Below are positions 58,859 through 62,855 of a stretch of 64,000 nucleotides of DNA, one piece after another. Location: assembly GCF_019669965.1 (NCBI RefSeq), contig NZ_AP019781.1:2419092-2483091 (forward strand), written 5' to 3'. The notes under the pieces were generated by a model. The model ran no database searches. It saw nothing but the letters and a program-made list of their open reading frames with translations, and was not told the origin of the DNA. Every line of letters starts with the position of its first letter. Positions within the stretch are counted from its first letter, which is position 1. The translations under genes and the position numbers were made by a program. The DNA comes from Methanoculleus chikugoensis (lineage in GTDB: Archaea; Halobacteriota; Methanomicrobia; Methanomicrobiales; Methanoculleaceae).

Positions 58859-60187
58859 TCAGTAGGTCGCCAGGTACCGGTCGAGTTCCCAGGGGTGAAC
58901 CGTCGTCCGGTAGGCATCCCACTCGATCTGGGCAACGCTCGTGAGCGCCTCGACGACATGGGGGCCGAGCGCCCTGCAGATGAGGTCGTCGGCGAGGAGG
59001 GCGGAGTGAGCCTCGTGGAGGTCTCCGGGCAGCGTCTCGATCCCGTTTTGGCCCCGCTCGTCGGCCGTCATGTGGAAGATGTTCTTGTGAGCATCATCCG
59101 GCGGCTCGATCCCCTGCCGGACGCCCTCCATCCCGGCGGCGAGCATCGCCGTGAAGGCAAGGTAAGGGTTGCAGGTCGGGTCGGGGCTGCGGAACTCGAC
59201 CCGGGTGCTGTTGCCGCGGGGCGCCGGAACCCGGACGAGGGCCGAGCGGTTGCTCGCGCTCCAGCTGACGTAGCAGGGCGCTTCGTAGCCGGGGACGAGC
59301 CGCTTGTAGGAGTTGATCGTTGGGTTCGCGACCCGGGTGATGGCCTTTGCGTGGCGAAGCAGCCCGCCGATGAAGTGCATGCAGGTCGTCGAGAGCTGCC
59401 GCGGGGCATCCGGGTCGTAGAAGGCGTTCACCCCGTCCTTTGCGAGGGAGCAGTTGGTATGCATCCCGCTCCCGTTGATCCCGTGGATCGGCTTCGCCAT
59501 GAAGGATGCGTGCAGGCCGCGCATCAGCGCCATCGTCTTGACTGCGAACTTGAACGTGATGACATTGTCGGCGGTGTGGAGCGCGTCGCTGTACTTGAAG
59601 TCGATCTCATGCTGGCTCTCGGCGACCTCGTGGTGCGAGGCCTCGATATCGAACCCCATCTCGGTGAGCGTGAGGATCGCCTCGCGCCGGAGGTCCTCCG
59701 CGAGATCGGTCGGCGCGAGGTCGAAGTAGCCGCCGACGTCCTGGAACTGCGTGGTCGGACGGCCGTCGAGCATCTTGAAGAGGAAGAACTCCAGTTCAGG
59801 GCCGGTGTTGAAGACGTAGCCGTCCTTCGCGGCATCCTCCATCGCCCGCCGGAGCACGTAGCGCGGGTCGCCCTCGAACGGCGTGCCGTCCGGCTTGCAG
59901 ACGTCGCAGATGAACCGGGCAACGCTCTTCTCCCGGGGCCGCCATGGGAGGAGGGTGTAGGTCGAGAGGTCGGGCTTGAGCACCATGTCGGACTCCTCGA
60001 TCCGGACGAATCCCTCGATCGACGACCCGTCGAACCCGATACCGTCGGTCAGCGCTTTCCCGACCTGCTTCGCCGGGATGGAGACGTTCTTGGGCATGCC
60101 CAAGAGATCGGTGAACTGAAGCCGGAGGAACCGGACGTTGTCCTGCTCGATGCGCTCGAGCATCGCCGAGATGTTGTCGCCAGACAT
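58859..60187 (-). CDS. glnA: Glutamine synthetase, type I
   Basis: Makes glutamine from glutamate, ammonia and ATP. The 442 residues have GFDGSSIEGFV, the ammonia/glutamate site around GPELEFFLF, the loop NPTINSYKRLVPGYEAPCYV and RVPAPRGNSTRVE, and the C-terminal EWDAYRTTVHPWELDRYL. No tyrosine adenylylation loop of the bacterial GSI-beta kind is seen, so the alpha type fits. A T-run lies past the stop. Its promoter holds two overlapping GGAA-N6-TTCC sites, so it is probably repressed by NrpR when nitrogen is in excess. The glutamate synthase genes lie divergently. Confidence 0.95.
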   Translation of the reverse strand: MSGDNISAMLERIEQDNVRFLRLQFTDLLGMPKNVSIPAKQVGKALTDGIGFDGSSIEGFVRIEESDMVLKPDLSTYTLLPWRPREKSVARFICDVCKPDGTPFEGDPRYVLRRAMEDAAKDGYVFNTGPELEFFLFKMLDGRPTTQFQDVGGYFDLAPTDLAEDLRREAILTLTEMGFDIEASHHEVAESQHEIDFKYSDALHTADNVITFKFAVKTMALMRGLHASFMAKPIHGINGSGMHTNCSLAKDGVNAFYDPDAPRQLSTTCMHFIGGLLRHAKAITRVANPTINSYKRLVPGYEAPCYVSWSASNRSALVRVPAPRGNSTRVEFRSPDPTCNPYLAFTAMLAAGMEGVRQGIEPPDDAHKNIFHMTADERGQNGIETLPGDLHEAHSALLADDLICRALGPHVVEALTSVAQIEWDAYRTTVHPWELDRYLATY

Positions 60188-60188
60188 A

Positions 60189-60221
60189 CGGAAGGAAACT
60201 TCCTTCCGATGTTATTTATAC
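60189..60221 (-). promoter_or_regulatory. glnA promoter with overlapping NrpR-type operators
   Basis: CGGAAGGAA (60189-60197) and TTCCTTCCG (60200-60208) form a perfect 9-bp dyad. Within it, GGAA-N6-TTCC occurs twice, overlapping by 10 bases (60190-60203 and 60194-60207). The TATA element TATAAATA reads on the minus strand at about 60213-60220. The dyad lies between the TATA box and the glnA ATG, 1 base from it. GGAA-N6-TTCC is the operator of the methanogen nitrogen repressor NrpR. Confidence 0.75.
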
Positions 60222-60294
60222 TTGACGCATCTACATCTATCAGAGCGTTCCCCGACCACCCCGGGTGGAGGGGAGCGGGTCGACCGTGATGGGT

Positions 60295-61350
60295 ATGTGC
60301 GGCATAATTGGCGTAATGGACAGATCCCGCCGGACGATGGACGGTTCCGGCATCCGGCAGGCCCTCTCCATGATGAACGAGCGCGGCAGCGGCGAGGGGG
60401 CGGGGTACGCAGCCTACGGCATCTATCCCGATTACCGGGACTGCTACGCCCTCCACGTCTTCTTCGACAACGTCCGCGAGAACAAGCCGCTCCTCGATTC
60501 GACGCTCGCGCAGTGGGGGACGATCGAGCACGACGAGGCGATCCCCACCTACGGGCGGCCGAACCTCCGGGCGGTTCACACCCCTTGGCGCTACTTCTTC
60601 AAGCCCGACCCTTCCCTCGCGCTCGCCGGCAGCACGACGCCGGAGGACGATATCGTGAGCGCCCTCGTGATGCAGGTCAACGCCGCCCGCCGCGGCGCGC
60701 TCATCTTCTCCTCCGGCAAGGACCTCGGGGTGTTTAAGGCCGGAGGGTGGCCCGAGGACGTCGCGGACTTCTACCGGATCGAGGACTACGAGGGCTACAT
60801 CTGGCTCGCGCACAACCGTTACCCGACGAACACCCCCGGGTGGTGGGGCGGCGCGCACCCGTTCAACCTCCTCGGCTGGAGCGTCGTGCACAACGGCGAG
60901 ATCACCTCCTACGGGACGAACCGGCGCTACATCGAGAGTTACGGCTACACCTGCACGATGTATACCGACACCGAGGTCGTCGCATACTTAGTCGACCTCC
61001 TGGTGCGGCGACACGGCCTTGACGTCGATATCGCGGTCCGGGCGCTCGCCCCGCCCTACTGGGAGGAGATCGACCGGATGCCCGACGCGGAGCGGGAGTG
61101 GAACGGAGCCCTCCGGCTCGCCTACGCGCCGGCGATGATGAACGGGCCGTTCGCCATCGTGGCCGCGAACCGCGACATGATGGTCGGGTTCACCGACCGG
61201 GGCAAGCTCCGGCCGATGGTCGTCGGCGAGTGCGGCGACCGGCTCTACATCTCGAGCGAAGAGGCTGCAATCCGGGCGATGGAACCACGGGTCGAATCGA
61301 TCCGGATGCCGGCCGCGTGCGAGCCGGTGATCGGGAGGGTCGTCGCATGA
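60295..61350 (+). CDS. Glutamate synthase, glutamine amidotransferase subunit (class II)
   Basis: Releases ammonia from glutamine for glutamate synthesis. Starting at the ATG at 60295 the second residue is the catalytic Cys (MCGIIGVMDRS), which fixes this start over earlier in-frame Met codons. Further class II GATase motifs are LAHNRYPTNTPG and WSVVHNGEITSYGTNRRY. The chain is 351 residues and carries this domain alone. The stop overlaps the next gene (ATGA). It is divergent from glnA and shares its regulatory region, so the two may be controlled together. Confidence 0.9.
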   Translation: MCGIIGVMDRSRRTMDGSGIRQALSMMNERGSGEGAGYAAYGIYPDYRDCYALHVFFDNVRENKPLLDSTLAQWGTIEHDEAIPTYGRPNLRAVHTPWRYFFKPDPSLALAGSTTPEDDIVSALVMQVNAARRGALIFSSGKDLGVFKAGGWPEDVADFYRIEDYEGYIWLAHNRYPTNTPGWWGGAHPFNLLGWSVVHNGEITSYGTNRRYIESYGYTCTMYTDTEVVAYLVDLLVRRHGLDVDIAVRALAPPYWEEIDRMPDAEREWNGALRLAYAPAMMNGPFAIVAANRDMMVGFTDRGKLRPMVVGECGDRLYISSEEAAIRAMEPRVESIRMPAACEPVIGRVVA

Positions 61351-62855
61351 TCGGGAGCCTCCCCTCACGCTACCGGATCGGCATCGACCCCGTCCGGTGC
61401 ATGGAGTGCGGACGGTGCATCGAGAACTGCTCCTACGGCGTCTTCTCACGGGACGGAGACCGGATACAGGTCAACTCCCGCAACTGCACCGCATGCCACC
61501 GCTGTATCGCCTGCTGCCCCCGGGACGCCATCAGCCTCGAGGAGCATCCCTGCGACTACCGGAGCCACCCGCTCTGGACACGGGAAGCACGGGAGGCGAT
61601 CTACAACCAGGCCCGGACGGGCAAGATCATCCTCGCGGGGATGGGCAACGCCCTCGATTACCCGGTCATCTTCGACCGCCTGGTGCTGGACGCCTGCCAG
61701 GTCACGAACCCGAGCCTCGACCCGCTCCGCGAGCCGATCGAACTGACGACCCACCTCGGGAAGAGGCCGGCGCGGCTCGATCTCCGGCGCCGGGAGGGCG
61801 GCGACATCGAGCTCCGGACACGCCTCACCCCGAACCTCAGGATCGAGACCCCGGTGATGATCGGGCACATGAGTTACGGGGCGATCAGCCTCAACGCCCA
61901 GGTGGCCATGGCCCGGGCGGCAAAAAAGACCGGGACGTTCATGGGCACCGGGGAAGGCGGGCTGCACGCCGCCCTCCACCCCTACCAGGACCGGATGATC
62001 GTCCAGGTCGCGTCCGGGCGGTTCGGCGTGAACATCGATTACCTGGAGCGCGGCGCCGCGATCGAGATCAAGATCGGGCAGGGGGCGAAGCCCGGCATCG
62101 GCGGGCACCTCCCGGGGGAGAAGGTCTGCGCGGATATCTCCCGGACAAGGATGATCCCGGAGGGGAGCGACGCGATCAGCCCCGCGCCGCACCACGACAT
62201 CTACAGCATCGAGGACCTCGCCCAGCTCGTCCGGGGGCTCAAAGAGGCGACGGAATGGAAGAAGCCGGTCTTCGTAAAGATCGCCGCCGTCCACAACGTC
62301 GCGGCCATCGCCGCCGGCATCGCCCGCTCGCCGGCCGATGCGGTCGTCGTCGACGGGTTCCGCGGGGGCACCGGCGCGGCGCCGACGGTCTTCCGCGACC
62401 ACGTAGGGATCCCGATCGAGGCGGCAATCGCGAGCGTGGATAAAAAACTCCGCGACCAGGGGATCAGAAACGAGATATCCGTCATCGCGAGCGGGGGTAT
62501 CCGGGGGAGCGCCGACGTCGCGAAGGCGATCGCCCTCGGGGCGGACGCGGTCTACATCGGCACCGCGGCACTCGCGGCGATGGGCTGCCGGGTCTGCGGG
62601 AACTGTTACCGCGGCCTCTGCCCCTGGGGGATCGCCACCCAGCGGCCCGACCTCGTGGCGCGGCTCGACCCCGACGAGGGGTCGGAACAGGTGGCGAACC
62701 TGATCCGGGCGTGGACGCTCGAACTCGCCGAACTCCTGGGTGCCGCCGGGATCAACAGCATCGAGAGCCTGCGGGGCAACCGCGACCGGCTCCGGGGCTA
62801 CATGCTCGACGAGGGGCTGATGCAGGTGCTCGACGTGAAGCCGGTTGGGGCGTGA
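61347..62855 (+). CDS. Glutamate synthase, FMN/Fe-S (synthase) subunit, archaeal type
   Basis: Makes glutamate from 2-oxoglutarate and ammonia. The 502 residues begin with two ferredoxin-like clusters (CMECGRCIENC and CTACHRCIACCP). The FMN/synthase barrel follows: PVMIGHMSYGAISLNAQVAM, GEGGLHAALHP, GQGAKPGIGGHLPGEKV, DGFRGGTGAAPTV, IASGGIRGSADVAKA, and the Fe-S cluster region GCRVCGNCYRGLCPWGIA. It overlaps the amidotransferase gene by 4 bases. The third (GXGXG) piece of archaeal glutamate synthases is not seen after it. Confidence 0.93.
   Translation: MIGSLPSRYRIGIDPVRCMECGRCIENCSYGVFSRDGDRIQVNSRNCTACHRCIACCPRDAISLEEHPCDYRSHPLWTREAREAIYNQARTGKIILAGMGNALDYPVIFDRLVLDACQVTNPSLDPLREPIELTTHLGKRPARLDLRRREGGDIELRTRLTPNLRIETPVMIGHMSYGAISLNAQVAMARAAKKTGTFMGTGEGGLHAALHPYQDRMIVQVASGRFGVNIDYLERGAAIEIKIGQGAKPGIGGHLPGEKVCADISRTRMIPEGSDAISPAPHHDIYSIEDLAQLVRGLKEATEWKKPVFVKIAAVHNVAAIAAGIARSPADAVVVDGFRGGTGAAPTVFRDHVGIPIEAAIASVDKKLRDQGIRNEISVIASGGIRGSADVAKAIALGADAVYIGTAALAAMGCRVCGNCYRGLCPWGIATQRPDLVARLDPDEGSEQVANLIRAWTLELAELLGAAGINSIESLRGNRDRLRGYMLDEGLMQVLDVKPVGA

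Follow-up and report, generated by a model that had tools for sequence, protein, structure and literature searches.

The glnA gene of Methanoculleus chikugoensis was examined within a window of 64,000 nucleotides (the whole stretch of DNA analysed), which forms part of a complete chromosome of 2.62 Mb with 62% GC. The genome was assembled from sequence stretches and genes were called with a simple codon model, the start codons being approximate. glnA, the target gene, occupies positions 58859-60187 on the minus strand and encodes a type I glutamine synthetase of 442 aa (Pfam Gln-synt_N/C; TIGR00653 above cut-off) that is 94% identical to its counterpart in Methanoculleus sp. MH98A. Divergently oriented on the plus strand are a glutamate synthase glutaminase-domain gene (60295-61350; Pfam GATase_2), whose product starts MCGII with a cysteine at position 2 and which is a possible second target, and, downstream in the same divergent operon, a glutamate synthase FMN/ferredoxin-domain gene (61347-62855; Pfam Glu_synthase, 1.7e-139). 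A duplicate of the window segment 58859-62855, with the same divergent layout, is found at C1:430354-436145; its glnA copy (glnA2) is 87% identical to that of the window (glnA1).

Upstream of glnA, the sequence reads as a 20-bp inverted repeat, CGGAAGGAAACTTCCTTCCG (60189-60208), with perfect 9-bp arms and a 2-bp centre (CGGAAGGAA-AC-TTCCTTCCG on the plus strand). In the direction of glnA, on the minus strand, the TATA element TATAAATA (60221-60214) is followed by five bases, the 18-base core GGAAGGAAGTTTCCTTCC, 2 bases and the ATG (60187-60185); the TATA start lies 17 bp from the operator and 33 bp from the ATG, a placement fit to block the TATA element or the start of transcription. A pattern search of the window returned two exact GGAA-N6-TTCC matches in the dyad, overlapping with a 4-bp offset. 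These are an ATG-proximal register at 60190-60203 (minus strand; GGAAGTTTCCTTCC on the glnA strand), which is the register common to other families of the order, and a TATA-proximal register at 60194-60207 (minus strand; GGAAGGAAGTTTCC on the glnA strand), whose half-sites have been added in Methanoculleus glnA1. The original prediction had placed two overlapping GGAA-N6-TTCC operators between the TATA box and the glnA start, and both registers, the TATA element and the ATG were confirmed at their positions; as for there being two operators, both registers are present, but they form one interleaved element, a putative double NrpR-type operator, of which only 60190-60203 is common across the order.

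Perfect palindromes with 9-bp arms and a 2-bp spacer number about 80 in the genome and are mainly GC-rich and terminator-like or coding; palindromy by itself is therefore not special, whereas the sequence and position of the dyad are. A perfect palindrome of this kind immediately upstream of the ATG might fold into a hairpin and mask the start codon, and the dyad might thus act as RNA in the glnA leader, on translation or termination. This reading is regarded as extremely improbable, since in nearly all relatives the distance between the TATA start and the ATG is 33 bp and transcription should begin at or after most of the dyad, the left arm across the order is often AGAA against TTCC, changing without pairing compensation, and the same element lies upstream of nifH and amtB, where the downstream contexts differ. 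Given the TATA-to-ATG distance of 33 bp and a transcription start placed by archaeal promoter geometry, the glnA mRNA is probably leaderless or nearly so, with the dyad mostly outside the transcript.

NrpR has so far been studied chiefly in Methanococcus and Methanosarcina. The operator consensus of Methanococcus maripaludis NrpR is GGAAN6TTCC (PMC2723118), in agreement with the earlier identification of the motif as the published Methanococcus operator, and the intergenic NrpR sites of this species include nif, glnK-amtB, glnA and two molybdate-transporter operons (PMC2723118). According to PMC11957540, NrpR is released by 2-oxoglutarate. In the genome studied here, a profile search identified exactly two genes with the NrpR domain (PF01995), namely an NrpRI candidate of 321 aa with HTH_12 and NRD1_2 domains (C1:669199-670164; PF08461, 7.1e-19; PF01995, 2.6e-66) and an NRD-only protein of 249 aa (C1:596009-596758; PF01995, no HTH). 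The NRD of the former matches the M. jannaschii NrpR-like protein MJ0159 (PDB 3nek). A 2010 paper on Methanosarcina mazei is said to describe separate NrpR-domain proteins, NrpRI and NrpRII, and the pair found here, one HTH+NRD protein and one NRD-only protein, is alike in domain content. The sampled Methanosarcinaceae glnA genes showed no GGAA dyad within 130 bp of upstream sequence. A literature search gave nothing relevant on NrpR in Methanoculleus. New here are the operator, the target list and the promoter geometry for the whole order Methanomicrobiales, although the novelty is modest and lies in the interleaved double form and the extension to the entire order.

The doubled element, GGAAGGAANNTTCCTTCC, occurs in two copies in the 2.62 Mb genome, at glnA and at amtB-glnK, where 0.0004 (base composition) to 0.0019 (second-order Markov) would be expected. 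The second copy is located 45-49 bp upstream of an ammonium transporter gene (PF00909), which is followed by a P-II gene (PF00543), and a third site, GGAAGGAANNTTCC, retaining three of the four half-sites, lies 96 bp upstream of a Glu_synthase-domain gene. A TATA-like element is found just upstream of the site in all three cases (glnA, amtB-glnK and the Glu_synthase-domain gene). A position weight matrix trained on other genera only and run on this genome ranked glnA2 first and glnA1 third. The single GGAAN6TTCC pattern taken alone constitutes weak evidence: the genome holds 63 such sites and 38 matches to the reversed control, and the window holds 5 where 1.6 would be expected. As a means of finding the regulon it was discarded, most of the 63 genome sites being inside genes or far from starts.

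Within the genus, GGAAGGAANNTTCC gave 63 strand-counted matches in 35 genomes, compared to 4 for the reversed control. The matches were collapsed by hand to 45 distinct sites, at least 36 of which are directly upstream of glnA, amt, nifH or a glutamate-synthase-like gene, while 3 examined ones are at other places and 6 fall outside the examined set. No nifD above the curated cut-off was found in the M. chikugoensis genome, and only 2 of the 35 genus genomes have one; both carry the doubled dyad 62 bp upstream of nifH, and this is the strongest single test. About half of the amtB-bearing members of the genus are without the exact doubled dyad at amtB. A recurrence of the dyad at other nitrogen genes (amt, nif) had been put forward as a check on the NrpR reading, and it is found at amtB-glnK in the genome itself and at nifH in relatives. 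As a separate observation, a short ORF, MNDENSLWVSRGPGHD* (C1:849734-849785; L140:9734-9785), starts about 1 nt past the amtB operator and overlaps the amtB start out of frame; it is kept in 8 of 11 relatives as MN(D/G)(E/K)N(T/S)(L/S)W(V/L)..R and possibly encodes a small protein or a leader peptide on an amtB transcript that is leaderless.

Conservation extends across the order, which was sampled through 70 glnA 5' regions from about 25 genera. RGAA-N6-TTCC (R = A/G) is present within 60 bp around the glnA start in 47 of the 70, against 0.09 (maximum 2) in dinucleotide shuffles, and the geometry of these 47 promoters is nearly rigid, the TATA start lying 33 (32-37) bp and the operator 2-3 bp ahead of the ATG. 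The TATA start precedes the operator by 17 bp order-wide, or by 13 bp where the match is only in the outer register. A composite pattern of TATA and operator, searched in 150 genomes of the order, gave 83 sites. For 59 of them, a glnA homologue follows on the same strand within 250 bp; among the remainder, two more are glnA and several are upstream of ammonium-transporter operons.

NrpR domains occur in 118 of the 150 genomes, with at least two NRD genes per genome in nearly all that bear NrpR. Site and NrpR co-occur across the order, the exception being the glnA copies of family f2. In genus g20 of family f6, NrpR is absent throughout and the composite site is present in 0 of 24 genomes; three glnA upstream regions of this genus were inspected and the dyad was not found in them. 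In addition, genome G053, which is 98% complete and gave no NRD match, carries AGAAATTTTTTTAA at the position of AGAAGCTATTTTCC in its NrpR-bearing congener G063, a decay of TTCC to TTAA. The sampled genomes are related, and the co-loss therefore amounts to two or so independent events, not dozens. Three glnA2 copies (in G025, G014 and G009) have decayed sites despite the presence of NrpR. What the analysis shows directly is the site with its spacing and conservation, the genes of its regulon, the presence of NrpR genes, and the joint loss of NrpR and site.

In several genera of family f2, nrpR adjoins a glnA that is without the dyad, and in part of the f2 genomes the site stands at amt or at a second glnA operon instead. 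The presence of NrpR in several f2 genomes with no dyad at glnA, together with the reported response of a Sulfolobus Lrp-type protein to glutamine, could be taken to mean that the dyad is bound by another nitrogen or amino-acid regulator, e.g. of the Lrp/AsnC family, NrpR co-occurring only by descent. Such a regulator is considered very improbable, as the dyad sequence equals the published NrpR consensus and its targets fit the known NrpR regulon (PMC2723118), and as the site is gone in the NrpR-less genus and, independently, in G053. On the sequence evidence, the dyad is thus read with high confidence as the operator of the euryarchaeal nitrogen repressor NrpR, controlling glnA. The original prediction had proposed this reading and made it depend on an nrpR homologue in the genome and on conservation of the dyad upstream of glnA in relatives; the HTH+NRD and NRD-only proteins provide the former, the dyad stands at fixed spacing in close and distant relatives, and the reading is further supported by the match to the regulon and by the co-loss of site and NrpR.

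Some further observations concern the arrangement of nrpR and glnA. NrpR-domain genes lie directly beside a dyad-less glnA in G070, G035, G060, G040, G045 and L046 (Methanomicrobium mobile), and nrpR also follows glnA in Methanoperedens (L053, L058). A changed NrpR specificity in f2 was entertained and found unsupported: the HTH of the glnA-adjacent NrpRI of M. mobile (L046) is nearly identical to that of M. chikugoensis, and changed specificity is therefore unlikely; the presence of the site at amt operons in part of the f2 genomes also speaks against it.

The two registers of the glnA1 dyad raise the issue of whether both are functional. In 15 of 15 glnA1 promoters sampled from the genus, the four half-sites persist as GGAAGGAANNTTCCTTCY. 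These promoters were obtained by protein search and assigned to glnA1 by carrying the doubled site itself; 12 of the 15 also rank as the closest homologues when protein identity is compared (at least 90%, with glnA2 copies at 85-88%). It could be argued that only the register at 60190-60203 works as an NrpR operator and that the second is a chance by-product of repetitive GGAA sequence, as glnA outside Methanoculleus has one register only, at the same distances to TATA and ATG, and so does the genome's own glnA2. This is thought rather unlikely in view of the retention of the four half-sites in those promoters, where the N6 of the first register is almost invariant (GTTTCC, with one GATTCC and one ACTTCC), whereas the single register of the glnA2 paralogue has a variable N6 (GTAGAC, GTTGAT, GTAACC, GAAGAC). 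Furthermore, in five species the ATG-proximal end of the glnA1 site is now TTCT while the second register is intact, and the doubled form recurs at the unlinked amtB and nifH promoters. The comparison of these promoters suggests that the second register is a Methanoculleus elaboration and not a by-product, and the dyad is read as an interleaved double operator. The protein might occupy it as a single dimer on the outer dyad, as two dimers in alternative positions, or as a tetramer.

By analogy with the known systems, we infer the following course of binding, repression and release by 2-oxoglutarate, together with a part for NrpRII and a consequence of operator doubling. Under ample nitrogen, with 2-oxoglutarate low, NrpRI (HTH+NRD) would bind the 20-bp element between the glnA TATA and the start codon, probably helped by the NRD-only partner (putative NrpRII), which may contact TBP/TFB. 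Bound NrpR would keep the TBP/TFB/RNA polymerase complex from assembling or from escaping. Under nitrogen shortage, 2-oxoglutarate would rise and NrpR would let go, allowing glnA to be transcribed; amtB-glnK, the glutamate-synthase-like gene and, where present, the nif genes would be derepressed together with it. In Methanoculleus, the operator of glnA1 and amtB appears to have been doubled by interleaving registers 4 bp apart, probably for tighter binding than at the single operator of glnA2. It is tentatively suggested, as a possibility that we hold to be somewhat doubtful, that Methanoculleus reads nitrogen through this interleaved double operator, a pair of repressor dimers or a single NrpRI-NrpRII assembly binding cooperatively to the two NrpR registers 4 bp apart on an 18-20 bp palindrome, with a steeper 2-oxoglutarate switch at glnA1, amtB and nif than at the single-operator glnA2 as the consequence. 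If this holds, gene duplication would have left one glutamine synthetase copy under tight control and the other under loose control. The occurrence of glnA1 (double operator) and glnA2 (single operator) in one cell offers a clean natural comparison for operator doubling and repression.

Compared with M. maripaludis, the consensus is the same and the targets again include glnA, the ammonium transporter with P-II, and nif; a molybdate-transporter promoter with GGAAN6TTCC is likewise found in the M. chikugoensis genome. The system differs from that of M. maripaludis in that the glnA1, amtB and nifH operators each combine two registers, interleaved with a 4-bp offset, in a single palindrome of 18-20 bp. 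It also differs in the left half-site at glnA, which is frequently AGAA across the order, in the gene order of Amt and P-II (Amt comes first in the M. chikugoensis genome) and in the inclusion of a glutamate-synthase-like gene in the regulon. Lie et al. reportedly described two operators at M. maripaludis nif in 2005; these are reported to be separate from each other. The molybdate-transporter site mentioned above, GGAAGGATGCTTCC (C1:2216893-2216906; L208:16893-16906), lies 43 bp upstream of an MFS_MOT1 molybdate transporter gene, in a genome with no nifD above the cut-off.

The dyad may plausibly be shared with the divergent glutamate synthase operon. The true start of the glutaminase-domain gene is probably 60295 (MCGII...), 87 bp from the dyad. 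The near-palindromic TATTTATA, which adjoins the dyad and is conserved in 12 species, is the only intergenic sequence that clearly resembles a TATA element. With regard to the duplicated locus, the glutaminase and FMN-domain genes are present in the window copy, but the two ORFs that follow further downstream in the C1:430354-436145 copy are missing next to them. Lastly, 12 Methanoculleus species show strong conservation of the stretch around ATCTATCAGAGCGTTCCCC (window positions 60229-60250), which belongs to neither the TATA element nor the dyad and is possibly the promoter or leader of the glutamate synthase operon.
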